DNA of 64,000 bases from assembly GCF_006704125.1 (NCBI RefSeq), contig NZ_VIGH01000002.1, positions 372,001 to 436,000 on the forward strand, given 5' to 3'. Below are positions 2 through 12,651 of the stretch, piece after piece. Numbering within the stretch: position 1 is the first letter of the stretch; each line of letters starts with the position of its first letter. The translations under genes and the position numbers were made by a program. The notes under the pieces were generated by a model. That model had not been told where the DNA came from, ran no database searches, and saw nothing but the letters and a program-made list of their open reading frames with translations. The stretch is from Rhodococcus spelaei. GTDB taxonomy: Bacteria > Actinomycetota > Actinomycetes > Mycobacteriales > Mycobacteriaceae.

Positions 2-478
2 ACCCCGATGTTCCAGTCAGGATGCCCGGCCGGCACGACCGGGTACACCGGCGCTCAGGCGGCGTTCAACTGCGTCGTCCGGTACCAGGACCAGGGTGGC
101 ACCTGGATCAATCTTCGAAGTGGGAAGGGCGATCCGAACGGCTTCGGGCAGTTGCACTACAAGACCGATCATCAGGTCAAGGATCGCTGGGTGGAGCTCC
201 TGCTGCAGGACAGCTACGGAGTTCCGACCTCGTTCAACGCAGAAGGGACGGGCGTTACCGCCAACCCTGATCGATACAGGTATGCGCAGGGGTTGTACAC
301 CGATTTCGCTGGGCAGCGAAACTATCTCATCGCGCTGCAGGTGATCGTCGACTTCGCCCCCACCAATCAGGTGTCCGACAACACGCAGTTCGGGATCGTC
401 ACCTCGTACTGCTCGGATCCGAACAACAACGACAACATCATCCAGTTCTGCCCTCAGCTACCGCCCCCGTACCTGTGA
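2..478 (+). CDS. C-terminal part of an exported protein, possible RNase-type toxin tail (cut by left edge)
   Basis: The frame is open to the left edge, so this is only the last 158 or so residues of a longer protein; the ATG at 8 is probably internal. The segment carries Cys residues suited to an exported protein and the pattern R-S-G-K, then GFGQLH, then DHQVKDR, then a run ending GIVTSYC. An early GFGxxH, a following H/K/R segment and a late G-[IV]-V-T-x-Y strand recall RNase toxins of the barnase/EndoU/colicin (BECR) fold, but I cannot assign a family. It is followed by a strong hairpin and lies beside two LGFP toxin genes, so it may be the tail of a third. No LGFP repeat is visible in the part present. 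Confidence 0.55.
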   Translation, partial: TPMFQSGCPAGTTGYTGAQAAFNCVVRYQDQGGTWINLRSGKGDPNGFGQLHYKTDHQVKDRWVELLLQDSYGVPTSFNAEGTGVTANPDRYRYAQGLYTDFAGQRNYLIALQVIVDFAPTNQVSDNTQFGIVTSYCSDPNNNDNIIQFCPQLPPPYL

Positions 479-964
479 GGTAACAAATGTCTTCGGGTTG
501 GGCGCAGAGATGCGCTCAACCCGAAGACATTTCGCATAGACGCGCCACCCGGTCGGCACCACACTCGGTGACTCGTGCAGCACGAGTTCTCGGCCAACTC
601 CGCCTGGCATCGCTCGCGATTGCGTGGCCAGCAATCCGGTCCCGGCGACAGTTGCCGCGAACACGGGAACCACGGGACTGTAGTCGCCGATGCGCCGCTC
701 CTCGCTCAAGGTGCCAGCAAGGGTATGGATCCCCTCGGCAATGCTGGTATGCCGGACGACAGCCTGGAATCCGTCCTCACCGGTCACCAGTGACACGCCT
801 GCATCCGCTGGCGTGGCCGGCGCAATGTGGCGAACCTCAGCTGTCACCGTGGAAACCAAGCCCGCGGGCGCCCCGTGAACGAGTGTGTTAAGCAGGCAAC
901 TGAGCGCCACTCGGTCACCGACCGCGTACTCGCGAGCAGGATTCGCGTCGAGGACGACCCACAT
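458..964 (-). CDS. Hypothetical protein, about 168 aa, beta-rich
   Basis: I do not recognise this family. The ATG at 964 is chosen over the one at 973 because AGGTGAGG lies just upstream of it. Codon choice looks like real coding sequence. The protein has alternating hydrophobic strands and no signal peptide or membrane segment. The reading frame runs through the hairpin at 485-532 and overlaps the end of the convergent partial gene by 21 bases, so the last 25 or so residues may be an extension past a lost stop. Its position against the toxin-like tail makes an immunity role conceivable, but the convergent orientation is unusual for that. Confidence 0.5.
   Translation of the reverse strand: MWVVLDANPAREYAVGDRVALSCLLNTLVHGAPAGLVSTVTAEVRHIAPATPADAGVSLVTGEDGFQAVVRHTSIAEGIHTLAGTLSEERRIGDYSPVVPVFAATVAGTGLLATQSRAMPGGVGRELVLHESPSVVPTGWRVYAKCLRVERISAPNPKTFVTSQVRGR
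485..532. terminator. Hairpin after the left-edge toxin-like gene
   Basis: Arms 485-505 and 512-532 pair over 21 bases with one G-T, around a 6-base loop. It starts 7 bases after the stop at 478. It also lies inside the reading frame of the minus-strand gene. Confidence 0.75.
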
Positions 965-996
965 GGACCTCACCTAACCCACGTTAGCGCGCGCAT

Positions 997-1253
997 TTGC
1001 GCTGCTGAACCGGGCGCGAACAGGGTGCCGGGGGCCATCCGTGACAAGTGTTGTCAAACAGGCTCGGAAGGAGGCCATCTCGGGTATCCGACCAGCGATG
1101 AGATCAACACCCGCTGAGCTAGCAGCGTTGGGAACTCGTATGAACGTGTTCCAGGCGGGGATATCGTCTGGAACGCGATTCAAGGAGCAGCCGATGGCGT
1201 CTGGGTTCGGGCGGAGAACATGTTGGTCGAACTCCGTGGATTCACATGCGCGA
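997..1253 (+). pseudogene. Decayed LGFP-repeat gene fragment
   Basis: Pieces of two LGFP repeats can be read in three frames. Bases about 1003-1114 give GAIRDK, then LGYPTSDE, then a stop. Bases about 1135-1160 give RMNVFQAG in another frame. Bases about 1158-1230 give GGDIVWNAIQGA in the third. These match the AIRDKW...LGYPT.DE and RMN.F..G.IYW cores of the intact proteins at 1837 and 9562. Neither end of the original gene is present. It is a frameshifted remnant of a paralogue. Confidence 0.7.
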
Positions 1254-1308
1254 GATCGAGCGCCCATCGGAACAACGATTGTGCTGTCGTTCCGATGGGC
1301 GCTCGATC
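1254..1308. terminator. Perfect 20-bp hairpin after the LGFP remnant
   Basis: Arms 1254-1273 and 1289-1308 are perfectly complementary over 20 bases, with a 15-base loop. It directly follows the LGFP remnant. Confidence 0.75.
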
Positions 1309-1317
1309 ACATCGGTG

Positions 1318-1496
1318 ATCGGCGGTACATCCTGCCGATCGAGGCACCCGACTGGGATGCGGCGACGGGATCCGACCACCTGATCACCCGGCTCGACTTG
1401 TTCTTGTATGCCCCTGGGTGGCAGGAGCGAAGTGCACACCCGATCAGCGAGGCAGTCTCCGTGGTGGTGATGCCCCCGCCTCCAGCTAACCGTTGA
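1318..1496 (+). pseudogene. Gene fragment, unknown family
   Basis: The open frame ending at the TGA at 1494-1496 has a plausible protein-like tail (ILPIEAPDWD, then LFLYAPGW, then a Pro-rich end) but no start of its own: upstream it runs into the hairpin at 1254-1308. It sits between two hairpins, just as the intact DUF2716 gene sits after a hairpin at 3841-3884. It may be what is left of an immunity gene, which is inference only. Confidence 0.3.
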
Positions 1497-1510
1497 AACA
1501 GGTCGTGTCA

Positions 1511-1552
1511 CGAGCGAAGCTCCCAACCGGTGATGGTTGGGAGCTTCGCTCG
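1511..1552. terminator. Perfect 18-bp hairpin
   Basis: Arms 1511-1528 and 1535-1552 are perfectly complementary with a 6-base loop. It closes the decayed module upstream of the RNase-toxin gene. Confidence 0.75.
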
Positions 1553-1676
1553 TCGGCAGGCACGTAACTCTCGGCGCACGTACGCACGTCCACGCAGAAG
1601 GAGAGCTCACACGCCGATCTCGTTCCGGTTCGGCCGCAAAGGATCGTTGGCGGCCGACAGCCTGACGGGGCTGACG

Positions 1677-1836
1677 CAAATTGGAGTTTCACCTCAAACG
1701 TACTGGCCAGTACTTTTTGTAACCAAAGCGAGACTTGTCAATTAAGTCCGAGATGTGAAGTTTACCTTTAGGTTCAGCAATGAACGACCCAGTTCACAGG
1801 TACCTCCCAGGAGCATTCCAGGAAAGCAGGTGCAGT
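1677..1836 (+). promoter_or_regulatory. Upstream region conserved with that of the second LGFP toxin gene
   Basis: About 160 bases match 9404-9561 almost base for base. Shared elements include the perfect 14-base palindrome GTACTGGCCAGTAC (1700-1713), then TTTTGTAACCAAAG, GAGACTTGT, AAGTCCGA, ACCTTTAGGT and an inverted GAAC/GTTC pair near 1780-1800. Conservation outside coding sequence, including the palindrome, points to shared regulation of both toxin genes. I could not fix -35 and -10 boxes. A GGA-containing ribosome site (about 1820-1830) precedes the TTG start. Confidence 0.6.
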
Positions 1837-3792
1837 TTGAACCAGAGTTCATGGCGCGGGCATGAGTACCGTCGCCGACATCGGAAGGGCGCCGCGCGGG
1901 CGCTCGGAACCCTCGCCGTCACCGCCACGCTCATGGTGACCGGCGTGAGCACCGCGATCGCAGCACCGACTACCTCGCCCTCGCCGACTCCGGTCGAAGT
2001 CGAAGAGTCCTCCACGGCAACCTCTTCGACGCCATCGACCACGACCACGACCACGACGCCACCGCCCACATCGGCGGCATCAGATCCTGTGTTGAAGGAA
2101 TCGCCCGCCGCGTCGGCGACCAAGCAGCGCACGTCGACACCCCCGGCGGTGCCCAGCACTGCGGTCGAAACCACTTCGCCTTCCCTCACGACGACGTCGA
2201 GCGCCGAGGCCACTAGCAGCTCACCGGCGCCGGCCGCCGCAGCGAACGGGAAGAAGATCCCGTACACGGGCAAGGCGACCGAGAACCCGAATGCCACCGT
2301 CGTACCGGGCAAGATGCGTTCGGATCGGGAGGAGATCCCGGAGGGCTTCACGAAGGCCGACGCGGACAAGGCCGAGACGCTCGAGGCCAAGGCCAAAGAC
2401 CCCAAGAACGCCCGGTCCACCTTCGGAATCCTGGCCTGCCAGTACTTTTGGCCGTCGCCCCACGCGGTGTGCGGCGCAATCCTGGACAAGTACCTGTCGC
2501 TCGGCGGCTCCAACAGCTTCCTCAAGCACCCGATCAACGTGGAGCTGGGCAACCCCGACGGCGTCGGTCGCCGCCAGGAGTTCCTGGTGGGTCCGATCTA
2601 CTGGCATCCCACCCATGGCGCTCATCCGGTCGTCAACAGCTTCATGACCAAGTGGGGCTCCAAAGGCTGGGAAGCCGGCATCCTCGGCTACCCCACCACC
2701 GACGAAGCGGTCAACCCGGACGGCGTCGGGCGACGCCAGAATTTCGTCGGCGGCACAATCTACTGGCACCCTCTAGCGGCACCCCAGGCCGCGTTCGTCG
2801 GCGGAGCGATCCGCGACAAATGGGGCCAGACAGGCTGGGAGGGACCGGGCGGCCTACTCGGCTACCCCACCGAAGACGAGAAAGTGGTCGGATCGAACGG
2901 CGCAGGCCGAATGAACCGCTTCGAGAGAGGCGTGATCTACTGGTCGCCAACTACAGGTGCGCACCCTGTATCGGGGATCATTCTTGCAGAATGGACCGAA
3001 TCCGGCTATGAAACCGGGTACTACGGCTACCCGACCGGTGACGAGTTCGCAATGAACCCAGGCCGCAAGCAGGTATTCCAAAACGACTACATTGACTTTG
3101 GGACAGCGCAGTCGATTTCAAAACAACACTACGACTGCTCGCTCAATCAGTCATGGCCTGTCGCAACCAGTTCGACAAACTGGGTAAGAAGCAATATTCG
3201 TGCGACGTGTACAGACCCGAAGCAGAAGATTGAGATGATCACTCAGTACTTCTACACTGCGCCCGGCCAGAGCAATGAAGTAAACCTAACTGAGGCCGTC
3301 CAGGTAGCTACCGGCCCCCAACCCCTCCATGAGTTCAAGCGCGGATATACATCGACTTGCGTCAATGGAACATATCGAGCGAGGACGAAATTCAATATCA
3401 TTAATGCGGACGGCGGAACCCTGCCTCCCCCTACTCCCCACAGGTCAGATCCCGTTGTGGTGAGCAATTGCCGAACAGTTGCGCCGGTGTGCCCCGCTAC
3501 CATGAGTCAACCAGATTGCAATGCATCGGTCGACGCATACCTATTCGCTGTACGGAAGAACATGGCCGCACGGCCGGGATATGCAGGTAAGAGCGTCTTC
3601 GACAACGACTTGAATCACCTACCGACCCCAGTGACGAAATGGCTAGAGTACGACGTCTATCTACCCGACTCAAACAATGATCGCACCGCCGAGCGTCTTG
3701 TTATCGACGACGGGGATCGCCTCGGGAAGATTTGGTTTTCCAAGGATCATTTCAAGACACAAGGAGGGTGGACTGGCTGGGAACTAGAATAG
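1837..3792 (+). CDS. Exported LGFP-repeat protein with C-terminal guanyl-specific RNase toxin domain
   Basis: A 651-residue protein. The TTG at 1837 is preferred to the ATG at 1780 because the paralogue at 9562 has a stop in the upstream frame and the same TTG context. Order of parts: signal peptide (Arg-rich n-region, cleavage near AIA-AP at 42), Thr/Ser/Pro-rich linker to about 130, a GKKIPYTGK...MRSDREEIP segment, four LGFP repeats (about 199-423), a Cys-containing spacer, then a microbial RNase (N1/T1/barnase) domain from about 550. The RNase core reads VF.N...LP, then EYDV, ERLVI and KDHFKT; E604, R620 and H638 line up with the catalytic Glu, Arg and His of RNase Sa. LGFP repeats bind the mycolata cell wall. 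The role as a secreted toxin is inferred. Base composition drops in the C-terminal half. Confidence 0.8.
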   Translation: MNQSSWRGHEYRRRHRKGAARALGTLAVTATLMVTGVSTAIAAPTTSPSPTPVEVEESSTATSSTPSTTTTTTTPPPTSAASDPVLKESPAASATKQRTSTPPAVPSTAVETTSPSLTTTSSAEATSSSPAPAAAANGKKIPYTGKATENPNATVVPGKMRSDREEIPEGFTKADADKAETLEAKAKDPKNARSTFGILACQYFWPSPHAVCGAILDKYLSLGGSNSFLKHPINVELGNPDGVGRRQEFLVGPIYWHPTHGAHPVVNSFMTKWGSKGWEAGILGYPTTDEAVNPDGVGRRQNFVGGTIYWHPLAAPQAAFVGGAIRDKWGQTGWEGPGGLLGYPTEDEKVVGSNGAGRMNRFERGVIYWSPTTGAHPVSGIILAEWTESGYETGYYGYPTGDEFAMNPGRKQVFQNDYIDFGTAQSISKQHYDCSLNQSWPVATSSTNWVRSNIRATCTDPKQKIEMITQYFYTAPGQSNEVNLTEAVQVATGPQPLHEFKRGYTSTCVNGTYRARTKFNIINADGGTLPPPTPHRSDPVVVSNCRTVAPVCPATMSQPDCNASVDAYLFAVRKNMAARPGYAGKSVFDNDLNHLPTPVTKWLEYDVYLPDSNNDRTAERLVIDDGDRLGKIWFSKDHFKTQGGWTGWELE

Positions 3793-3840
3793 GGGCAGTC
3801 CCCAGCCTGGCGCGAAGTAAAGTATAGCGCCTTGTCAACC

Positions 3841-3884
3841 GTGAGGGGGTCTCGGAATTCCGCATCACTCCGAGACCCCCTCAC
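3841..3884. terminator. 16-bp hairpin between RNase toxin and DUF2716 gene
   Basis: Arms 3841-3856 and 3869-3884 are perfectly complementary, with a 12-base loop. It lies between the toxin stop (3792) and the next gene (start 3913). If it terminates, the immunity gene needs its own promoter or read-through. Confidence 0.7.
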
Positions 3885-3912
3885 GAGTCCACGGTATCCA
3901 AGGAAGCGAAAT

Positions 3913-4446
3913 ATGACACTGGATCGCGATAGGCCTAGTTCAGGACGAATTTGGACTCCCATCGACCGAGCCGACAAAGTTCAGCTTTGGTCAGATTTCA
4001 ATAAGCGTTACAAGTTTCAACCCGGACTTGAGCCTGAGGATTTTCCTGGAATCGCAGAGCCTGTGCCGTCAATTACATTCAAGCTCGCCAAGAATCCCAC
4101 CAAGTCTGCATATCGGGATAACTTCAATCGGATCAATATGGAGGCTCTCCAATCTTTCCAGTCGATCGTTCCAGCGGGACGCGAAATGATAGCCTTGGAC
4201 TGGCAGCACCCATGCTTCCGGTTCATGCCGTCCGCGGTCGAATCATCAAATGAAATTGACTGGAAGATCCCGGTGTATCCGAATGGCGACTACTACATTT
4301 TCGTTACCGAATCGCTCAACGAGGGGACATTTGGGCACCCATGGGAGCATTCTATTTGCGTATTCGGATCGCAGCTAGTTGATGAACTTGGTAGTCGTCT
4401 GGGAAAATGGCTCACCCCGATAAGGATCGACGGAAAGTCCACCTAA
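3913..4446 (+). CDS. DUF2716 family protein, candidate immunity protein for the RNase toxin
   Basis: A 177-residue protein without signal peptide or membrane segment. The ATG at 3913 is chosen because AAGGAAG precedes it; the longer frame from 3832 would run through the hairpin. Features typical of DUF2716 are visible: an N-terminal W..F..R..F.P stretch, ALDWQHPCFRF in the middle, and a Y..GDYYIF segment leading into GTFGHPWE and CVFG. The family has no fixed biochemical role that I can state. Its place directly behind an RNase toxin gene suggests it binds and blocks that RNase. Base composition is unlike the chromosome: bases 3961-4020 hold 25 G+C of 60, against 44 of 60 at 22021-22080. Confidence 0.75.
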   Translation: MTLDRDRPSSGRIWTPIDRADKVQLWSDFNKRYKFQPGLEPEDFPGIAEPVPSITFKLAKNPTKSAYRDNFNRINMEALQSFQSIVPAGREMIALDWQHPCFRFMPSAVESSNEIDWKIPVYPNGDYYIFVTESLNEGTFGHPWEHSICVFGSQLVDELGSRLGKWLTPIRIDGKST

Positions 4447-4662
4447 TGAATACAACGAGGGGGTCAACGCGGCGTTCGCGGTCACCGGCACGCCCACGCG
4501 CCGTACGTGTGGTACGGGGCGGCCCGTGATGCGAGAGTGGAGACCGCGTGCGATTCGACGACGCGTTCGGCGTACGTCGGGGGATCGCCCGACACGGCCA
4601 GGGAGGCGATGGACCGGTGCTGGCAATACGACCGGGAGCGCCTTCTCGTTGAGTCCGACTGA
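4447..4662 (+). pseudogene. Frameshifted gene fragment after the DUF2716 gene
   Basis: Two joined frames read like protein: YNEGVNAAFAVTGTP, then in another frame HAPYVWYGAARDARVE through to LLVESD and a TGA at 4660-4662. There is no start or ribosome site. I do not recognise the family. From 4663 to 4930 I see no gene and no strong hairpin. Confidence 0.35.
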
Positions 4663-4930
4663 CGGGCTTTCGCTGCCGCGTTCCAGCGGTCGTCAGGGTT
4701 GGCCCAATACTCCCGAATCTGACCCGAAGTGCAAAGTAGCGCCCGTTAGGCGTTGATGTTCCGGCGTGAGCTGTTCATCGCCCTTGCGGCAGAATCTTTC
4801 GGCGCACCGCAGAGAGAATTGACCTGCCGGCACAGCGCGCCCTGATCGGCCAGGCGAACGGTGCGTGACCGGCGGGAAGATCTCTGTTGCCCCCGTGCAG
4901 CGAACCGCACCACCGACGAAGGGACAGATC

Positions 4931-5269
4931 GTGGCGAAGAAGGTACTTGTCGAGTACGTCGACGACATCGACGGCACCCCCCTCGACGCCGACGGCAAGA
5001 CCATCACCTTCGCGGTCGACGGAGTCGAATACTCCATCGACCTGCACAGCGAGAACGCCCGCGCATTTCACCGCGCACTCGACCATTACATCGAACACGC
5101 CACCAGATTGAGCTCCCGACGCGAAACTCCCGGCGTCGTGCTGTCGCGATCCCAGGCCCGCACGCGATCCCAGGCGATCCGACAGTGGGCGGCAACCAAC
5201 GGACACAGCGTGCCCGCGCGGGGCCGCATCCCGGGCGCAATAGAGCAGGCGTACATCGCGGCCCAGTGA
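4931..5269 (+). CDS. lsr2: Lsr2 family nucleoid-associated silencer
   Basis: A 112-residue Lsr2 homologue. Lsr2 is the actinobacterial counterpart of H-NS: it binds AT-rich DNA through the minor groove, oligomerises and silences foreign genes. The GTG at 4931 gives the usual VAKKV start and has AGGGA upstream. The N-terminal dimerisation domain (about 1-60, VDDIDG...FAVDGVEYSIDL) is followed by a basic linker and the C-terminal DNA-binding domain with IRQWAATNGH and the R-G-R hook in ARGRIPG (about 98-104). Its linker is less basic than in classical Lsr2. It stands next to unusually AT-rich toxin DNA, so local silencing is plausible. It is probably a second copy in addition to the chromosomal one, which is not in this window. 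Confidence 0.85.
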   Translation: MAKKVLVEYVDDIDGTPLDADGKTITFAVDGVEYSIDLHSENARAFHRALDHYIEHATRLSSRRETPGVVLSRSQARTRSQAIRQWAATNGHSVPARGRIPGAIEQAYIAAQ

Positions 5270-5301
5270 TCGTAGGGGTGGAGGGTCGGGGCCGGCCATC
5301 G

Positions 5302-5493
5302 TCACCCGAGATGTGTCGCGGTGGGCTGGTGGCCGAGCGTCCCGGTGGGGATGCCCAATTCGGTGAAGGTCGACAGCAGTCGGTCCACGTCTGCCGCGTC
5401 TCGGCAGCCGTATCGGGCGAGGTCGAACAGGGATCGGGCGACGGTCGGGTCGGTCCGGGCGGCCGCGACGGCGGCGTCGACTTCTTGCTTCAC
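5302..5493 (-). CDS. Small ORF downstream of tniQ
   Basis: A 63-residue frame from a GTG at 5493. The residues VKQEVDAAVAAARTDPT and the helical segment after them look like real protein. The same frame is open further upstream into the tniQ region, so this could instead be a tniQ C-terminus displaced by a frameshift. I cannot assign a family. Confidence 0.35.
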   Translation of the reverse strand: MKQEVDAAVAAARTDPTVARSLFDLARYGCRDAADVDRLLSTFTELGIPTGTLGHQPTATHLG

Positions 5494-5543
5494 GCGCGCC
5501 GAGACACAGCCGGTGTCCTCGGTGCTGGGTGCCGTGCCGCCGT

Positions 5544-6515
5544 TCAGGGACGGGGCGGCGCTCGGCGGAGATCCCGGTGCGAGGTGGAGACGGGTTCGGG
5601 TGTCAGAAGGGAGCCATGCGTGCCGCGGGCGAGGATCGTCCCGCGCTCGATCAGGCCGATGGCCGTGGCGGCAGCCTCGAGCAGGAGCGCCTGATCGGGC
5701 CAGGTCAACTCCTCGAAGGGTCGTCTGTGCAGGCGCATGTTCCGGCCACCGAGCTGCTCCCACACCTGCCGCAGATCAGTCCCCCGACACCCCGCCCGGC
5801 CGAGGGGCGCGCACAGTTCGTCGAGGAGGGTGCGCAGCAGGCGGAACCAGACGCCCGCGTGAACCTGTCTGCGCGGCAGCGTGACACGACCATCCCTCAG
5901 CGCCTGGGAGGTGCGTGCGTCCATCGCGGCCACCGGATCGGAGGCCGGTGTGGGCCGGTCCTGGTCGGACTCCCACCCCACGTAGACGGCGGGCAGGCAC
6001 TCGCACGGTTCGAGCAGGCATCGATGTGTCGGGCAGCTGAGCTGCAGCGGCAGGTTCCACGTCAGCAGCAGCGCCGGAACGACGGCGTCGTCAAGGCAGC
6101 GCCGGCAGGCCCGTTGGACGGGTCGCCCGGGTGGCAGCCATGGCCGCCAGCCGGGCGGCGGTGTGCGCGACGGCCGCCGGTCCGTTGGAAGCAGGACCGA
6201 GAACTGGCGGGTGTACGTCTCGAACGAACAGCTGCAGGGGTCGAGGCTGTCGAGCAGCCACGGTACGAGGCCGGCCAGGCTCATGCGGCGCAGCCGGTCC
6301 GGCTCGACACCGCTGCGCCCGGACAGGGACTCGAGCAGGTCCGGCGGCGGATCGGAGTCCAGGCCGGCATCCGTGATCCGGTGATGGCCCAGGTCGTGTT
6401 CGAGCAGTCCGGGCAGCGTGAGCTCGTAGGCGGCCGCGGTCCTGTGCAGCCACGAGGACAGGGCCTCGCCGTCGAGGAGTGCGGGATGGATCGGCCACCG
6501 CGCGGGCGGGGTCAC
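5544..6515 (-). CDS. tniQ: TniQ family transposition protein
   Basis: A 323-residue protein. TniQ works with TniA and TniB in Tn5053/Tn402-type and Tn7-like elements, where it helps choose or engage the target. The N-terminus (HPALLDGEALSSWLHRTAAAYEL) is the family hallmark. A zinc-binding segment follows in the middle: C..C (RACRRC), then C..H (SCPTH). The GTG start overlaps the tniB stop by 4 bases, showing translational coupling. The C-terminal 25 or so residues are Pro/Arg-rich and may be out of frame with respect to an ancestral end. It is the last gene of the tniA-tniB-tniQ set. Confidence 0.85.
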   Translation of the reverse strand: MTPPARWPIHPALLDGEALSSWLHRTAAAYELTLPGLLEHDLGHHRITDAGLDSDPPPDLLESLSGRSGVEPDRLRRMSLAGLVPWLLDSLDPCSCSFETYTRQFSVLLPTDRRPSRTPPPGWRPWLPPGRPVQRACRRCLDDAVVPALLLTWNLPLQLSCPTHRCLLEPCECLPAVYVGWESDQDRPTPASDPVAAMDARTSQALRDGRVTLPRRQVHAGVWFRLLRTLLDELCAPLGRAGCRGTDLRQVWEQLGGRNMRLHRRPFEELTWPDQALLLEAAATAIGLIERGTILARGTHGSLLTPEPVSTSHRDLRRAPPRP

Positions 6516-7426
6516 GGGATCTCGCGTTCGAATTGTCTGCGGCGCTCGCTCGGCCCCACGTACGCGGCCATGGTCAGGGTGCGCCGGTTGATGGCCTCCT
6601 CACCGCCCTCGACCGCCGCGACGGCGGCCTCGGTCAACAGCAGTGCCAGCTCTCCGATTGTGCCCTCGCTGCGCGCGAGCAGGTAGCTGGTCATGTCGTC
6701 GGTGGCGAGGTGTGAGCGTCGCCGCAGCGGGAAGGACGCGGCGAAGCTGGCCACCAGCGAACGTGAGTCCCCACCACCCTCCCACAGCGGCAAGGTCATT
6801 GGCGCGAAGCGGTTTTCGAGTTGGTCGTCGGTGCGGATGGCGAGGTAGGCCTCCCGGGTGCCGACGCCCACGATCGGGATCCGGAGCTCGTTGCCGAGGT
6901 AGCGCAGCAGGTTCAGGAATTCGCGGCGGACGCCGTCGCGTCCGGCCAGGACGTTGTGCAGCTCGTCGATCACCAGCATCCGCACCCCGGTCCGACGCAG
7001 CAGCGACAGGGTCGTCTGTTCGAGTTCGGACACCCGCCGGCGGGGCCGAACGCGTGCTCCGAGGGCGGCCTGCAGCGCCACGAAGAACCGGGCCACCGAC
7101 GGGTCGGAGGGCATCTGGACGGCAAGCACGGGGATGTGCTCGCGGTCGGTGTCGCTGACCGGCGGGTGCCGGCGCCGGAACTTCTCGACGATCATGGATT
7201 TGCCGTTGTTCGTCGGCCCGACCAGCAGCAGGTTCGGCATCCGCTGCCGGGCCGGCCAGGCCAGCAGCGTCTCGAGTCGGTCCAGGGCGGTGACCGCCCT
7301 GGGGTAGCCGATCCACCGGTCGGCGCGTATGTGTCGGAGCCTCTCGGATCCGGGCAGTCGCGCGACCGCGCGCGCGTCCTCGCGCAGGTGGGTCAGGTCC
7401 TCGGGTCGCTCGTCCATCGTCACCAT
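6512..7426 (-). CDS. tniB: TniB AAA+ ATPase of a Tn5053/Tn402-type transposon
   Basis: A 304-residue ATPase that regulates the TniA transposase and carries target DNA, like TnsC and MuB. The Walker A motif GPTNNGKS is at 70-77 and Walker B MLVIDELHN at 150-158, followed by a sensor-like GVGTREA segment. The ATG overlaps the last codons and stop of tniA, and the stop overlaps tniQ, so the three genes form one translationally coupled operon. The reading frame is intact. Confidence 0.88.
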   Translation of the reverse strand: MVTMDERPEDLTHLREDARAVARLPGSERLRHIRADRWIGYPRAVTALDRLETLLAWPARQRMPNLLLVGPTNNGKSMIVEKFRRRHPPVSDTDREHIPVLAVQMPSDPSVARFFVALQAALGARVRPRRRVSELEQTTLSLLRRTGVRMLVIDELHNVLAGRDGVRREFLNLLRYLGNELRIPIVGVGTREAYLAIRTDDQLENRFAPMTLPLWEGGGDSRSLVASFAASFPLRRRSHLATDDMTSYLLARSEGTIGELALLLTEAAVAAVEGGEEAINRRTLTMAAYVGPSERRRQFEREIP

Positions 7427-9095
7427 TCCTCGATGTCGTCGAACGGGGCGCTCACACAGTCGGTTTCGTTGTCGCCCTTGCCCTTCGGTGGGGGCGGTGG
7501 GTGTCCGGGCGCCGGTTCCTCCCGGAGGTGTCGGCGCCGTTCGCCGTCCCGGCGGGCCTTGCGGGTGGTCTTCTGCGCGACGGCGGTGATCTCGCGCATC
7601 TGGGCCAGCATGCGGAAGAGGGTGGCCTCGTCGACCTGACCTCGGGCCTGTTCACGCAGGCGGGCGATCGCCTGCCGTTGTTCCCACAGGGTCACCGGTG
7701 GGTGCGAGAGCGTGCGGTAGGGCACCTCGACGTAGTCGCGGCCCTCCGGGTCGAGCACCCACACTCGGCTGATGTCGCGTGGGTCGCGCCGGATGACGAA
7801 CTTCTCCATCCGGTCGCGGCGGGCGATCCACGGCTTGAGGGCGTTGGCGAAGTAGTGGATGTGGTCGATGACGAAACCGGTGCGGGTAAGCCGGCGCCGG
7901 ATGACCGGCAGGAAGTCGACCAGAAAGGCGGTCGGATTCGACACCAGGGTGGGTGTGCCGCACCGGGCGACCTCCTCGGCCCATCGGCCGGCGGGGGTCT
8001 GACCGAGACCGGCATGGACGCTGCCGTGGTAGGACGCGACGGCCAGGGTGAGCCAGCGCTCGAGTTCGGCCAGGGTCAGGGCCGCGGTGGCCTCGGAATC
8101 GTAGGCTCCCCTGGCCGTCGGATTCGAGAACGTCGTGCCGGGCAGCTCGTGCACCCGTGTCATGACGGTGCCGATGAGCCGTTCGACGATCCCGCCGTAG
8201 TGGGGGCGCCCGGGCGGGCGGTAGTCGAGGTCGATCCCGTGCTGTTGGCATCCTCGGCGCAGCGCCTCGCTCTTGAACTCCGGTGCGTTGTCCAGGTACA
8301 GCCGGTTCGGCTTGCCGCCCATCGGCCAGTCGACCCGACCGGACAGTCCCAGCGCGTCGAGCCACAGTCGTTTGTCGCAGCACACGTGACCAAGGCAGAG
8401 CCCGACCGACACCGCGGACGGGGCCTCAGCGTCACGACCATGCCGAGCACGCACCGGCTGCGCTCGTCGATCGCCACCGTCAGATAGGGGCGCCCGATCG
8501 GCTGCCGTTCCCGGTCGTCGACGACCATCACGTCCATGACGGTGTGATCGATCTGCACCCGCTCCAGGACTTCGCTCGCGGTCGGTGCCGTGCCCCCGAC
8601 CGCCTGCAGTGTCCTGGCAGCATCGCGGCCCTCCCGCCGCCGCGCGACCACGCCCGGATGCATCGCAGCAATCCGCGCGGAGACGGTGTTGCGGGCCGGG
8701 GCCGTCAGCCCCCGCTCCCGACACGCCTGCGCGATGCCCTGGTAAACGACGGCCAGCGACGGCTTCTGCCGCTTCAAGTAGACCCTGCGTAGATGCTCGG
8801 CCACCAACTCTTCGAGTTGATCCGGCAGACGGCCCCCGCCACGGCCCCCGGACGATCGGCCCCCGAGCAGATCCGAGACCACACCCGAACCGCGACGGCA
8901 CCGATCGACCAGCGTATACACCTGCCTGCGTGAGAGCCCCAGCCGCGCGGCGGCATCGTCTGCCGCCTTGTGCCCCACAGTGTCCATTGCGGACAACGGC
9001 GCAATCACCGCAAACCGCGCTCTGGCCTGCTCCCACATCGCGTCCGACGAGGTGAGCACACCGCTCTCCGTGACCGCGGGCCCCTCCGCGGTCAC
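7420..9095 (-). pseudogene. tniA: TniA transposase (DDE), split by a one-base frameshift
   Basis: This is the Mu/Tn7-like integrase-type transposase of the element. The N-terminal part (GTG at 9095, GGGGG upstream) has a helix-turn-helix (ARLGLSRRQVYTLVDRCRRG) and the first catalytic Asp in VQIDHTVMD. The frame then breaks: after CVLGMVVTL the correct reading moves to another frame at about 8425-8429, as if one base of a CTCGAG-like codon pair were lost. The rest, with the second catalytic residue in LYLDNAPEF, the final Glu in GGIVERLIG, and the Mu-type C-terminal domain, lies in the new frame to the stop at 7420. As sequenced, the catalytic triad is on two separate peptides, so the transposase is probably dead unless a programmed shift occurs. 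Confidence 0.82.
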
Positions 9096-9403
9096 GGGCC
9101 GAACCCCCGGCGCGCACGGCGCATGTCGCAGTCGACGATAGTGCACATCACTTCTGATCGGCAGTGTCAGAAGTTCCCCGCACGACACACCGTTACCCCA
9201 CGAAGCCGTGCAGTCGACTCCTGAAACCGACAGAGGCGGCGAATCGGCTCGGCGACCAACTCGCGGCGAGCCGGCGGAGATGTCTCATCTTCAGGTGTTA
9301 CAGAATCGGTCGATTGTTGGACGGCTTCGGCCCCCTCCCCAACACCTCCACTCCGAAGTCGGGCCGAAAGCGCCCGTTCCCGGCCGAATGCCGACATCCC
9401 CGC
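9096..9403. other. Gap between tniA and the second LGFP module
   Basis: I see no gene here. A weak open frame continues tniA to 9188. The transposon end should fall in this stretch, but I could not find a convincing terminal repeat with a matching target duplication. Confidence 0.4.
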
Positions 9404-9561
9404 CAAATTGGAGTTCAACCCAAACGTACTGGCCAGTACCTTTTGTAACCAAAGTGAGACTTGTTACCTAAGTCCGAAATGCGACGGTGACCTTTAGGTT
9501 CGGCAGTGAACGACTTCGTTCACAAGTACCTCCCAGAACTTCCCAGGAAGAAGGTGCAGGT
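9404..9561 (+). promoter_or_regulatory. Upstream region conserved with that of the first LGFP toxin gene
   Basis: This is the second copy of the 160-base upstream region at 1677-1836. The same 14-base palindrome lies at 9426-9439. The downstream inverted repeat is better here: GTGAACGA and TCGTTCAC flank two bases near 9506-9524. AGGAAGAAGG (9545-9554) is the likely ribosome site for the TTG at 9562. The upstream GTG frame, matching the ATG frame in the first copy, ends in a stop in this copy, which shows that the region is not translated. Confidence 0.6.
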
Positions 9562-12135
9562 TTGAACCACAGTCCAAGGCGCGGGCACGAGTACCGGCGC
9601 CGACATTGGCGGGGTGCCGCGCGAGCACTCGGAGCCATCGCCGTAGCAGCAACCATCGCGGTGACCGGGATGAACACCGCGACCGCAGCTCCCTCCACCA
9701 CGCCGACGCCAATACCCTCCGCGACTGAGAAGGCATACGAGACAACATCATCGGCAGTCCCGACAACCACCCCTGCGGCAACCGATCCCGCAGCCGAGGA
9801 AACGACCACCGCAACTACCATCACGTCACGGGTTGCATCCCCCGCACCCTCGACGAGCGCACAACTCACGACTAGTACGCCGGCTACGACGACTACCGAG
9901 CCAACTCCCAGCACCGCTCCAGCGCCGGCGGCGAGCGGGAAGAAGATCCCATACACCGGCAAGCCGACCGAGAATCCGAACGAGACCGTGATCCCCGGAA
10001 AAATGCGGTCGGATCGCGAGGAGATCCCCGGGGGCTACACCAAGGAACAAGCCGACAAGGCCGAGATGAAGGAAGCCCGGACGCAGAAACAGGCTCAACA
10101 GGCCCGCGCGGGCCTACTCGCGCCACCGCCGCCTGGATGCCAGCAGTACTGGCCGACAGAATGGAACGTGTGCGGCGCCATCCGCGACAAGTACAACTCG
10201 CTCGGCGGACCCCTGAGCTTCCTGCTGCTACCGGCGTCCCACGAGCTGGTCAACCCGGACGGGTTCGGCAGGCGCTCAGTCTTCCAGAATGGCCCGATCT
10301 ACTGGTCCGCGGCTGGTGGCGCGCACCCGGTGGTGAATCATTTCTTCGCCGCGTGGGCACGCAAGGGCTACGAGGGCGGATACATCGGATACCCGACCAC
10401 CGACGAGATCGTTAACCCCGACGGAATCGGCCGACGCCAGAACTTCACCGGTGCCACCATCTACTGGAAGCTGAACGAGGCCTACTCGATCGGCGGCCTG
10501 ATCCGGGACAAATGGGGCCAGACCGGCTGGGAAGGTCCCGGTGGCTTGCTCGGCTACCCCATCACCGATGAGGTCGTCCTGCCGGATGGGCAAGGACGAA
10601 TGAACCGATTTGAGCGTGGCGTTATCTACTGGCACCCGACCTTCGGCGCCCATCCGGTCACCGGCCGCATCCTCCTCCAGTGGGGAAGCGAGCAGTACGA
10701 AGCGGGAATATACGGCTACCCCACCGCTGACCCGCAGCAGGTTGGAACAAATCAAACCCAGCAGTTCCAGTACGGCACAATCGGCGGTCCTCAAGCTATC
10801 GCCCGCTTTACTGCGACGGAACCGGAAGACACCCCCAGTAACGTGAATATGCCCGACTATGTCGGATCAAATGGGCAGTACGTCACAACGCTTCCTGCCA
10901 ATTTCCAAACCAGGGACTGCAATACTGCTGGAACAGGTACTGGATCGGGGTACGCGGCGTGCGTCACATACGGCGCGCACACTACTGACCCGACCATCAT
11001 GATGACGCCAGGGCAACCTCCCCTCGAAGAACAAGCGCCGCCGCCCGTTCAGCCATTCTCGGCACCAATCGTTACAAAGAATTGGTGCGAAAAAGACTAC
11101 GACGAGGAGGCGAAGACAGGGAATATCACCAACAGCTGGATAGCGGAACGCACGTACGCTTGCTCGGTTCACCCCGTCGTTCTCACACTAAAGAATATAT
11201 CAACGAATGCGCTGCTGGCGAGAGCCAATGCGAAGTTCGTGCAGGAAGTCCACACTAAGTACAATGACCCGAAGCAAAATGAATATCGGGCAATGTTTGA
11301 CATTGAAAGCGTTTTCCGAACCCTGGAAGGGGCAAACGCGCCATTCACGCTGAGTGCAAGTATTTCATGCCCCACCAGCGCCTGCACGGCCGCCCAGCAG
11401 GACGGCATGGTCAATGAAAACATTGTTCCCGGCGCTCAACTGTTTGTCTACTCAAAGATCTCGTTTGGAGATCTCGCACCCGGCGCTCTCGTAAGCGGCC
11501 CCGCAGAGGTGGACTGGACGCTTAGCGGAATACCGACCAGTCCTGGATCAAACGAAGGGGTTGATTCCACACCCAATATTCGGTGCGATAATGACACTCC
11601 GCCGCCCGGGTTCGCCAAGGTGATCGGCAAAGGTTGCGTCTTCCCCAATCGGTCGCCAATCATGGACGTTGTTTCTGATCCAAATCAGCAAACGATTGCA
11701 AATCACATCAAGCGGGCCCAACAGTCGGGACTCAGGGGTGCAGAGACTCTATATGCGACAGGGCCGTTGAACCGGATGGCCGACAAGAATGAGAGGATCA
11801 AGAACCGCAATCGGGCTTGCCCGGGCACTGCCAACAAGTACGACACTGCTGGTGGAACGAAGAGTTGCGACGAATATCCGTTCGCATCAACAAAGCAGGG
11901 TGCCGCCCAGCCTTCGGATATCGTCCAACCGCCGAATGGCCGCACCTTCTCGGGATGTGGCGTCAATGACCTCCCGAGGGTCGACCCTAGTCGGACGGGG
12001 AGCAGCGGATACAGCGTCTGTATGGTCCCGGTTGGGGAACAAAGTAAGCAAGCGAACGCGATCGGATCGTTCTACTATCAGAACCGGCTCCTCGACGGCG
12101 AGGCGTTCTTTGTGAGAGCCGACACCGGTAACTGA
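9562..12135 (+). CDS. Exported LGFP-repeat protein with C-terminal NucA/NucB-type DNase domain
   Basis: An 857-residue paralogue of the protein at 1837, with the same TTG start, signal peptide (cleavage near ATA-AP at 42), Thr/Pro-rich linker, GKKIPYTGK motif and four LGFP repeats (about 190-410). The following 350 residues are unique. The end carries the NucA/NucB deoxyribonuclease signature: a CDEYPFAST block (C769, D770, E771), then SGYSVCMVPVGE (E826), QANAIGSFY and DGEAFFV. In Bacillus, NucA and NucB cleave DNA outside the cell; here the DNase is carried by a wall-binding trunk. Six or more Cys in the tail suit an exported protein. Use as an antibacterial toxin is inferred from the modular build and the small gene 36 bases downstream. 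Confidence 0.8.
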   Translation: MNHSPRRGHEYRRRHWRGAARALGAIAVAATIAVTGMNTATAAPSTTPTPIPSATEKAYETTSSAVPTTTPAATDPAAEETTTATTITSRVASPAPSTSAQLTTSTPATTTTEPTPSTAPAPAASGKKIPYTGKPTENPNETVIPGKMRSDREEIPGGYTKEQADKAEMKEARTQKQAQQARAGLLAPPPPGCQQYWPTEWNVCGAIRDKYNSLGGPLSFLLLPASHELVNPDGFGRRSVFQNGPIYWSAAGGAHPVVNHFFAAWARKGYEGGYIGYPTTDEIVNPDGIGRRQNFTGATIYWKLNEAYSIGGLIRDKWGQTGWEGPGGLLGYPITDEVVLPDGQGRMNRFERGVIYWHPTFGAHPVTGRILLQWGSEQYEAGIYGYPTADPQQVGTNQTQQFQYGTIGGPQAIARFTATEPEDTPSNVNMPDYVGSNGQYVTTLPANFQTRDCNTAGTGTGSGYAACVTYGAHTTDPTIMMTPGQPPLEEQAPPPVQPFSAPIVTKNWCEKDYDEEAKTGNITNSWIAERTYACSVHPVVLTLKNISTNALLARANAKFVQEVHTKYNDPKQNEYRAMFDIESVFRTLEGANAPFTLSASISCPTSACTAAQQDGMVNENIVPGAQLFVYSKISFGDLAPGALVSGPAEVDWTLSGIPTSPGSNEGVDSTPNIRCDNDTPPPGFAKVIGKGCVFPNRSPIMDVVSDPNQQTIANHIKRAQQSGLRGAETLYATGPLNRMADKNERIKNRNRACPGTANKYDTAGGTKSCDEYPFASTKQGAAQPSDIVQPPNGRTFSGCGVNDLPRVDPSRTGSSGYSVCMVPVGEQSKQANAIGSFYYQNRLLDGEAFFVRADTGN

Positions 12136-12171
12136 CAGCGGCAAGAACAAGAAGGTGGAGGAGGGCCGAGA

Positions 12172-12651
12172 GTGCGGATCTACACTGGAACTGTATGGGC
12201 TGAGGAACAGGTCTTCATCTGCGATTCCGGGGATCCGTTCTCTCGGTCCGAATCCATTGACTTCAATAATTCAGGGGTCGGGCCATTTTCCGGACAGGGA
12301 ATAATTCTCTTCGCGATACCCGAGTATTACGGGAGTATTCAGGTAACCGTGCAGGTACATGACTCCGATCCCGGGCTTGACGCCGAGACCTGGTCTCGGG
12401 TCGCCGAGGGGAACTTCGCCACCGATCTTGGTGAACTCCGAGTGCTCGGTGCTGAAATGAATGAAGCAACGGGCGAACTTGACCAGCCACTGACCTCCGC
12501 CGGTGCATACGTAGCACACCTCCGGCTCCATGTACGCCCGCTCCCCGTGCCTGAACAGCACACATGGGAGGACATTGGTGCAGTGTGCCTAGTCCAACTC
12601 TGGATTACCGGCGGGGCTGCACAAACTTCAGTTGATCCCTCTTATCGTTGA
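12172..12651 (+). CDS. Candidate immunity protein for the NucA/NucB-type toxin
   Basis: A 159-residue protein without signal peptide. The GTG start has a strong GGAGGAGGG upstream and no terminator separates it from the toxin. Visible features: a beta-rich N-terminal half, then LDAETWSRVAEG, a TDLGELRVLG strand and a GAYVAHLRLHVR strand near 115-125. Bacillus NucA has a dedicated inhibitor, ComJ (Nin). The layout here is similar, and strands ending in a G-x-Y-x-x-x-L/V segment could fit that fold, but I cannot prove homology. The function is inferred from position. Confidence 0.55.
   Translation: MRIYTGTVWAEEQVFICDSGDPFSRSESIDFNNSGVGPFSGQGIILFAIPEYYGSIQVTVQVHDSDPGLDAETWSRVAEGNFATDLGELRVLGAEMNEATGELDQPLTSAGAYVAHLRLHVRPLPVPEQHTWEDIGAVCLVQLWITGGAAQTSVDPSYR

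Follow-up and report, generated by a model that had tools for sequence, protein, structure and literature searches.

What kind of system is encoded where two proteins begin alike, end in unrelated nuclease-like domains and are each followed by a different small gene? The question is raised by a 64,000-nucleotide stretch of the Rhodococcus spelaei genome (contig NZ_VIGH01000002.1, positions 372,001 to 436,000 of the forward strand), here called the window, which contains two such proteins, p1 and p2. Polymorphic toxins are defined by a constant exported N-terminal part, an exchangeable C-terminal toxin and an adjacent immunity gene. A comparison of p1 and p2 with their relatives on plasmids and in other genomes makes it highly probable that this family is a polymorphic toxin-immunity system, the constant part of which is a secreted, wall-binding trunk of LGFP repeats. 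The architecture, the diversity of the tails, the shuffling of trunks and tails, the pairing of tails with neighbouring genes and the occurrence of orphan and fused candidate immunity genes can be read directly from the sequences.

Shared front half of p1 and p2

Toxin p1 (1837..3792, plus strand) is predicted to consist of a signal peptide, a Thr/Pro linker, the trunk motif, four LGFP repeats, a domain of tail group T3 and a barnase-type RNase (about 3577-3753), and toxin p2 (9562..12135, plus strand) of a signal peptide, the linker, the trunk motif, four LGFP repeats, a conserved region and a NucA/NucB DNase (about 11761-12114). These assignments come from Pfam, together with the catalytic residues for p1 and a tail alignment for p2. 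At the DNA level, 1677-1964 and 9404-9689 are 82% identical over 289 nt and 2222-2943 and 9912-10632 are 71% identical over 749 nt, and the comparison reported no match between the tail regions. In the protein alignment, the signal-peptide region, the Thr/Pro linker, the GKKIPYTGK block and the LGFP repeats are common to both proteins, which then diverge. The common upstream region, signal peptide, linker and GKKIPYTGK motif described in the sequence-only reading of this DNA are thus confirmed, as are the four LGFP repeats in each protein, which were counted with a repeat profile of our own; Pfam divides them into five stretches in p1 and three in p2 (E = 2.8e-62 and 9e-55, respectively). The Pfam scan of p1 and p2 yielded LGFP, the nuclease domains, a weak DUF6330 match and nothing else, and NCBIfam gave no significant match for p1, p2 and the neighbour genes.

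The same reading had given both genes a TTG start, which we place at 1837 and 9562. These starts are plausible since the protein similarity begins directly 3' of the TTG, and they remain unproven, as the first in-frame starts are ATG 1780 in p1 and GTG 9487 in p2. The upstream regions (1677..1836 and 9404..9561, both plus strand) contain a common 14-bp palindrome, GTACTGGCCAGTAC, at 1700-1713 and 9426-9439, respectively. When one mismatch is allowed, the palindrome is found at these two sites and nowhere else in the 4.8 Mb genome, which makes it a candidate for a private operator; a carry-over with duplication of the upstream region would also explain the two copies. An operator common to the whole trunk family was considered and rejected, as no exact copy is present in the fetched loci outside the R. 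spelaei genome, and the palindrome is therefore claimed for this genome only. The only two similar sites lie upstream of Nocardia trunk genes (L067 and L076).

The base composition changes along both genes. At p1, the GC content is 0.65 for the linker and trunk, 0.53 for the tail and 0.50 for the partner gene, and at p2 it drops from 0.64 in the trunk to 0.56 in both the tail and the partner gene; positions 15001-64000 of the window have a value of 0.70.

Nuclease tails and their neighbours

The C-terminus of p1 matches the Ribonuclease family PF00545 with an E value of 9.1e-5 and 23.4 bits, just below the cut-off of 24 bits, and its homologue from R. opacus reaches 24.1 bits. The EY, R...R and DH positions are invariant across the 12 sequences compared (10 PF00545 reference domains, p1 and the R. 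opacus homologue); from RNase Sa and barnase, we take these positions to hold the catalytic Glu, Arg and His. A profile of 10 RNase sequences finds p1 at 3.6e-7 among the 75 tails of the family survey described below. The p1 tail is predicted to be a barnase-type RNase that retains the catalytic Glu, two Arg and His. The C-terminus of p2 matches NucA/NucB (PF14040) above the cut-off (E = 1.2e-7) and contains the motif CDEYPFAST in a 17-sequence tail alignment. The only PDB matches of the p2 tail profile are NucB entries, which are not significant (E = 1.5 and 1.6) and have the DE[WY]P.A motif in register. This tail is predicted to be a NucA/NucB DNase with the DEYP motif. Sequence searches of the PDB returned nothing significant for either tail, for DUF2716 or for a two-sequence barnase alignment. 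The claim that the two proteins switch to unrelated nuclease ends accordingly holds at the level of Pfam families. Barnase and NucB, which have the same catalytic domain types as p1 and p2, are stand-alone secreted enzymes that do not stand behind a shared wall-binding trunk.

Each toxin gene is followed by a different small gene, as the sequence-only reading had noted: a DUF2716 gene after p1 and a gene without any Pfam family after p2. The predicted immunity gene of p1 (3913..4446, plus strand; PF10898, 1.6e-45) lies in a frame that is open from 3832, and the ATG at 3913 fits a relative. Its product is 46% identical over 167 aa to that of the gene after the homologous toxin on R. opacus plasmid pCP105. 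The predicted immunity gene of p2 (12172..12651, plus strand) appears to be a diverged member of the family encoded behind NucA/NucB proteins. A profile built from six such partners, four from Nocardia and two from Streptomyces plasmids without LGFP or trunk match, retrieves it at E = 2.3e-5 among 1182 sequences, whereas 1000 shuffled copies gave no match at E up to 1; this profile was chosen after weak BLAST links had appeared, which reach two of the six members in single-sequence searches (E = 5.5e-4 and 0.002). As a single sequence, the p2 partner has no plasmid match and, among 298 genomes, one weak match (E = 9.4e-4) besides its own. The NucA/NucB proteins of the two Streptomyces plasmids are related to the p2 tail (E = 2e-13 and 1e-11), have no LGFP or trunk match and are followed by relatives of the NucA-tail partners, which indicates that a predicted DNase tail-immunity cassette occurs also outside the LGFP trunk.

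Tail diversity and shuffling

The trunk was searched by tblastn on plasmids, where 65 records match. The query coverage is at least 80% in 24 of these records, and the weaker matches include LGFP-only proteins. Regions were fetched from 17 of these records. A scan of genome contigs with exact peptide patterns, which favours close relatives, gave 65 loci with a trunk relative; one of them (L105, Streptomyces) matches the LGFP repeats only, below the trunk score, which leaves 64 genome loci and 17 plasmid loci. From the 93 trunk open reading frames (ORFs) above the profile score, one duplicate, three that run off a contig end and 14 with tails shorter than 60 aa were dropped.

The remaining 75 tails (at least 60 aa) form 18 single-linkage BLAST groups. 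The largest are the NucA/NucB group T0 (19 tails), T1 (9), the peptidase C92-type group T2 (8), T3 (6, with barnase in two) and T4 (5), followed by the DUF6973 group T5 (5), the phospholipase A2 group T7 (4) and others. The families detected by Pfam are PF14040 in T0, PF00545 in T3, PF05708 in T2, PF09056 in T7 and PF22322 in T5; with one member scanned per group, 13 of the 18 groups have no convincing Pfam match, and NCBIfam gave only one weak, YiiX-like match (0.018) for 10 proteins. The number of independent folds is smaller than 18, since tail profiles join T15 and T17 with D1, a family of separately encoded effectors, and connect T9 and T10 less strongly. This survey of C-terminal diversity, which the sequence-only reading had proposed, reveals that the family proteins do not share one end domain, so that the outcome named there as a refutation, the same end domains throughout, was not observed. 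Its description of the tails as nucleases applies to p1 and p2, and in relatives is too narrow, as peptidase C92-type, phospholipase A2 and DUF6973 tails and many tails without a Pfam family are also present.

The tail is not always part of the same chain. Fourteen trunk ORFs are tail-less, some of them broken or truncated, and six of these are followed by a protein of the D1 family, an arrangement that is interpreted as a split version with the effector as a separate gene. The view that the trunk carries a tail thus holds for 75 tails and fails for those trunks that are tail-less and followed by a separate effector-like gene. After the tail-less trunks of L034, L036, L037, L072, L081 and L095 (and of L090, by eye), a protein with an RRG(F/Y)...DK...KH-like motif is observed.

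Trunks and tails are exchanged in both directions. Two loci of Speluncibacter jeojiensis have trunks that are 96% identical and carry tails of different groups, and among the 2404 different-group pairs compared, 74 have a trunk identity of at least 75%. Conversely, tails of one group occur on trunks with as little as 44% identity.

Pairing of tails with adjacent genes

If the adjacent genes encode immunity proteins, related tails should have related neighbours. Among 74 tails, a homologous adjacent ORF is present in 46 of 285 same-group pairs vs 2 of 2416 different-group pairs, and in 2000 shuffles of the pairing none reaches 46 (largest value, 15), where the pairs are non-independent and the shuffles ignore relatedness. 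The difference persists for trunks with at most 70% identity (28/175 vs 2/2209) and with the NucA group omitted (39/114 vs 0/1371). The core proposal of the sequence-only reading, in which one LGFP trunk carries exchangeable tails and each tail has its own cognate small gene, is well supported by the 18 tail groups and this pairing.

The predicted topology of the partners was obtained from a simple, crude hydropathy scan of 23 chosen partners. Four transmembrane (TM)-like segments are found in the partners of phospholipase tails (3/3 tested) and three in those of T4 and T5 (DUF6973) tails (2/2 each). Among three partners of C92 tails, one fits the lipobox pattern, one has a TM-like start and one has neither. 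The partners of barnase tails (2/2) and of most NucA/NucB tails (2/3) have no TM-like segment. These topologies fit an immunity function in the compartment where the respective toxin would act.

Candidate immunity genes also occur as leftovers. Two plasmid loci, L120 and L121, are of this kind. On a plasmid of R. pyridinivorans SB3094, two immunity types stand side by side, a homologue of the L039 partner and, after it, DUF2716, and on R. ruber pmega_3 an L038-type partner is fused to DUF2716; the fetched stretches of both plasmids lack any trunk or LGFP match. On Gordonia polyisoprenivorans p174, a barnase-like fragment with an internal stop is followed by a DUF2716 gene, and this decayed module by a helix-turn-helix gene and a RES family gene. 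The R. spelaei genome contains a second DUF2716 gene at C1:94391, and inspection of the listed ORFs around it by eye revealed no toxin-like gene. The DUF2716 family is not bound to LGFP toxins, since on other plasmids its genes stand beside different ones, for example a gene for a GH25 lysozyme in Streptomyces.

A further observation concerns small membrane-anchored or lipoprotein-like ORFs 3' of some toxins (L045 7157-7489, L048 7134-7466, L029 7379-7765 and L030 6942-7355), in which a DG.P...(D/E)F..D...G-like segment resembles, by eye, the start of several NucA/NucB tails.

Distribution and features of the trunk

The genome loci belong mostly to Rhodococcus, Rhodococcoides and Nocardia, and others to Skermania, Speluncibacter, Aldersonia, Antrihabitans, Corynebacterium, Dietzia and Gordonia. 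Streptomyces, Saccharothrix and Umezawaea are genera without mycolic acids, and 10 of the 65 genome loci come from them (8, including L105, from Streptomyces and 1 each from the other two). The trunk is thus not exclusive to the mycolata, which corrects its earlier description as specific to the mycolic-acid wall. The tail-bearing loci of these three genera (L058, L060, L062, L064-L066, L046 and L057) have only NucA/NucB (6) or DUF6973 (2) tails.

Of the 65 genome loci, three are on contigs as large as a chromosome (more than 6 Mb), and 33 of the 65 matched plasmid records are typed as mobilizable or conjugative, some of these matching the LGFP repeats only. Of 397 genomes drawn evenly from the order, that of R. 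spelaei included, 10 match a 93-aa N-terminal trunk query when at most 13 candidates are scored per genome, two of them only at the LGFP start, and the trunk is found in none of five other genomes of the same genus. Among phages, 206 records match the trunk, none over at least 80% of the query, lysins being among the matches listed, and no trunk relative was confirmed on viral contigs. These results indicate that the trunk is a sparse accessory family. A phage or prophage origin was rejected on the partial phage matches and the lack of a confirmed relative on viral contigs, and a role in anti-phage defence was rejected as well, since 10 proteins compared with PADLOC gave no match at E up to 0.01.

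The GKKIPYTGK motif, which had been regarded as a mark of the trunk, is present in p1, p2 and close relatives and is found in relaxed form in only 14 of 92 trunk ORFs, which makes it a feature of close relatives; MRSDRE occurs in 53 of the 92, and the MRSDREE-containing segment is among the most conserved parts of a 10-sequence alignment. By a crude heuristic (a basic stretch, a hydrophobic stretch and an AxA-like site in stop-to-stop frames), an export signal is present in 74 of 85 assessable N-terminal regions and absent in 11, among them p0, a third copy treated below. In the PDB, the trunk profile finds the LGFP domain of PS1, a wall protein of corynebacteria, in the entries 6swz (E = 1.3e-41) and 6sx4 (E = 9.9e-40); there are also weak matches to Photorhabdus lectins (E = 0.001-0.003). 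Dietrich et al. 2020 have reportedly linked five repeated motifs in the C-terminal domain of mycoloyltransferase A to cell wall binding, and we take this domain to be the PS1 LGFP domain.

Of the 78 loci with at least 1200 nt upstream, 11, all from Rhodococcus and Rhodococcoides, have a gene head-to-head with the toxin gene for a small, secreted-looking protein with a single LGFP repeat, and in two further loci such a gene lies nearby. In stop-to-stop frames, the genes directly upstream of the trunk gene are on the minus strand at L029 4009-4383, L030 3831-4277, L031 3006-3500, L033 3896-4249, L035 4852-5367, L071 3872-4231, L080 3862-4272, L084 3794-4351, L089 3752-4111, L090 3741-4178 and L096 3723-4157, and the two nearby genes are on the plus strand at L086 6885-7475 and L119 1210-1752. 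No such gene was found in the window. The protein is possibly a shield of the wall receptor or an accessory binder. Additionally, Rhodococcus plasmids that are typed as conjugative carry autoregulator genes of the ScbR family near their LGFP toxin genes (L030, L031, L033, L034 and L037), and L033 has a ScbA/BarX gene as well; expression of the toxins may be under gamma-butyrolactone-type signalling.

A third copy and the surrounding genes

The third copy, p0, enters the window at its left edge. Its effector tail (group T10) occupies 8..478 on the plus strand, and its trunk starts upstream of the window (G000:C11:371186), where LGFP matches lie at C11:371471-371920 and the N-terminal part is frameshifted into another frame in a three-frame view. 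Over its full length of 156 aa, the tail shares 78% identity with that of an LGFP protein encoded on plasmid pRHL3 of R. jostii RHA1, the only plasmid record matched. The predicted p0 immunity gene (458..973, minus strand) is convergent and overlaps the toxin end by 21 nt. Its product is 47% identical over 162 aa (E = 1.7e-45) to that of a convergent gene at the same place on pRHL3 (L026 6635-7144, minus strand), so that a convergent gene overlapping the toxin end is present both at p0 and on pRHL3. The partner is consequently a downstream gene, as had been proposed, for p1 and p2, and a convergent one for p0. Taken together, p0, p1 and p2 each have a partner that is homologous to a partner of a homologous tail, with 47% identity for p0, 46% for p1 and the distant profile match for p2.

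Between p0 and p1, a remnant of an LGFP repeat (PGAIRDKCCQTGSEGGHLGYPTSDEINTR) was assigned by eye from translation and DNA at 1028..1117 (plus strand), next to a predicted orphan immunity gene of the T9 type without a toxin (1113..1496, plus strand; start set by eye). Its frame is open from 1041, and its 5' end is probably decayed. The 1041-1496 frame has 34% identity over 124 aa (E = 9e-17) to the gene after a T9-tail toxin of Nocardia arizonensis (L088), and no second copy was found in the genome at E up to 0.001. An Lsr2-family gene (4865..5269, plus strand; PF11774, 3.2e-21; PF23359, 2.8e-13), which lies within the island, is a neighbour and not a proven component. The same applies to the transposon genes between the two toxin cassettes (5544-9188, minus strand), which encode TniQ (5544-6515), TniB (6512-7426) and the C-terminal part of a Mu-type transposase (7420-9117), as assigned from Pfam and the ORF list; the transposase is split over two frames, with its N-terminal part, by eye, in the other frame. 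Upstream of p0 (L019 843-4372), three genes were named by eye, a tyrosine recombinase-like gene (843-2015, minus strand) and an Xre-like gene with a RES-domain-like gene after it (3409-4372), and from these genes the p0 locus looks island-like.

Comparison with known systems

Tox-Barnase and Tox-NucA are listed toxin types in the consulted part of the survey by Zhang et al. 2012 (PMC3482391), which also describes polyimmunity loci and fused immunity domains. The systems covered there resemble the LGFP family in having a constant trunk, a variable toxin tail, an adjacent immunity gene, polyimmunity and fused immunity, and the orphan and fused immunity leftovers of the LGFP family resemble those polyimmunity loci. 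A difference is that the partners of barnase and NucA toxins given there are Imm-Barstar and Imm36, SUKH or NTF2, whereas DUF2716 takes this place for barnase here. LGFP is not mentioned in the examined part of the main text. In a search that mostly left subscription journals aside, no description of LGFP in the role of a polymorphic-toxin trunk was present among the literature matches listed and no paper on DUF2716 was found; the first of these results agrees with the earlier statement that no system with this trunk had been described.

The nearest system in working principle would be the umbrella toxins of Streptomyces, which, according to the consulted part of PMC11062931, are secreted and contain lectin domains, mostly of beta-propeller-fold families, that are placed to engage target cells. 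Both systems are secreted actinobacterial polymorphic toxins. Umbrella particles are multi-protein assemblies with ALF repeats and separate lectin subunits, whereas the LGFP system combines wall-binding repeats and toxin in one chain. The Pfam scan of p1, p2 and eight neighbours revealed no ALF repeats, and no search aimed at ALF or UmbA/UmbB was made. A WXG/LXG (type VII) toxin was rejected, as no WXG100 or LXG domain is present in p1 and p2 at E up to 1 in Pfam and an N-terminal signal sequence is found instead.

The LGFP domain of PS1 (PDB 6swz and 6sx4) has repeats homologous to those of the trunk and differs in position: the match covers residues 401-585 of the 620 residues of 6sx4, whereas LGFP precedes the variable tail in the trunk family. 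Mycolyltransferase-like, PGRP-like and SpoIID-like proteins of the R. spelaei genome, named by eye, likewise have LGFP near the C-terminus. In phage LysA endolysins, LGFP is the predicted part that binds the host wall, as far as the consulted part of PMC9671378 describes them, a role like that proposed for the trunk; the coverage of the trunk query is below 80% in all 206 phage records.

Proposed mechanism and alternatives

In the proposed mechanism, the toxin would be made with an export signal and the Thr/Pro linker and would leave the cell via its signal peptide. Next comes a charged segment, TENPN...PGKMRSDREE, with GKKIPYTGK in front of it in the closest relatives, and then the PS1-type LGFP repeats, which would dock on a wall. 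The C-terminal tail would be a swappable effector, an RNase in p1, a DNase in p2 and, in relatives, a peptidase C92-type protein, a phospholipase A2, a DUF6973 protein or one of several unknown types. The product of the adjacent gene would neutralise the cognate toxin and guard the producer and its kin, and the use would be antibacterial, with the toxin acting in neighbouring cells. New tails would enter as cassettes of tail and immunity gene that recombine behind the trunk, and orphan immunity genes would be left over.

Several results weigh against this interpretation. No homologous neighbour is present in 239 of the 285 same-group pairs, and for NucA/NucB tails in 164 of 171 (7 have one), and the remaining pairing excess is qualified by the non-independence of the pairs noted above. 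The assignment of the p2 partner is distant, the PF00545 score of p1 is just below the cut-off, and the 10-sequence RNase profile misses the R. opacus homologue of p1 among the 75 tails. One of the five nuclease partners tested, of a NucA/NucB tail, has one TM-like segment. In addition, no translocation device was identified, and 10 of the 65 genome loci come from the three genera without mycolic acids.

The family might instead consist of secreted degradative enzymes (nuclease, phospholipase and amidase) that are held on the wall of the producer for feeding or in a biofilm, with neighbours that protect only before export, as barstar does. This would suit the presence of LGFP repeats in PS1, the NucA/NucB enzymes of Streptomyces plasmids that have related neighbour genes and no LGFP trunk, and the title of Dietrich et al. 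2020, which ties motifs of mycoloyltransferase A to wall binding. However, 18 tail groups on one trunk, unrelated tails on near-identical trunks, the orphan and fused immunity genes, the plasmid location and the sparse occurrence are not what such enzymes lead one to expect, and we regard this explanation as possible but weak, and unlikely overall, since it explains the shuffling and the orphans poorly. A role in plasmid maintenance, in which toxin and neighbour act as a toxin-antitoxin pair inside the producer only and stabilise plasmids or islands, would account for the 24 plasmid records that match over at least 80% of the query and for the helix-turn-helix and RES family genes after the decayed module on p174. 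It is very improbable, because intracellular action conflicts with the export signals (74 of 85 N-terminal regions by the crude heuristic) and, additionally, the trunk is long and of an extracellular type, the toxin gene lies 5' of its partner and three of the 65 genome loci are on contigs of more than 6 Mb. A secreted polymorphic toxin-immunity system is thus preferred, and the alternatives that follow concern the wall on which its LGFP repeats would dock.

The same trunk-tail system could hold the toxin on the surface of the producer for contact-dependent delivery, with the specificity residing in the tail or an unknown receptor. This version, which we consider a serious but unproven candidate at somewhat less than even chances, is consistent with the residence of LGFP proteins on the producer's own type of wall, with the trunks of Streptomyces and with the strong conservation of the MRSDREE-containing segment. 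The phage lysins, the LGFP regions of which are predicted to bind the host wall (PMC9671378, in the part consulted), argue against it, as they suggest that LGFP can act as a targeting part. A tentative alternative, likewise at somewhat less than even chances, is that the trunk may be a wall lectin by which the toxins are directed to bacteria whose envelope consists of arabinogalactan and mycolate. The system would then be a one-chain counterpart of the umbrella toxins, specialised for crossing the mycomembrane, which would be used within the mycolata and by Streptomyces and its relatives against mycolata neighbours. The single-LGFP protein might then mask the wall sites of the producer as a second layer of immunity.

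Implications

Protein weapons between bacteria with a mycolic-acid envelope have, to our knowledge, been little studied, and the passage of large proteins across this envelope is an open question. The trunk, which is present in Rhodococcus, Nocardia, Corynebacterium, Gordonia, Dietzia and others and has repeats homologous to a solved structure, offers a testable wall-binding part. The 13 of 18 tail groups without a convincing Pfam match are candidate new toxin families, and the neighbour genes are candidate immunity families, which include a predicted role for DUF2716. The LGFP trunk thus looks like an apparently undescribed front end for swappable bacterial weapon proteins.

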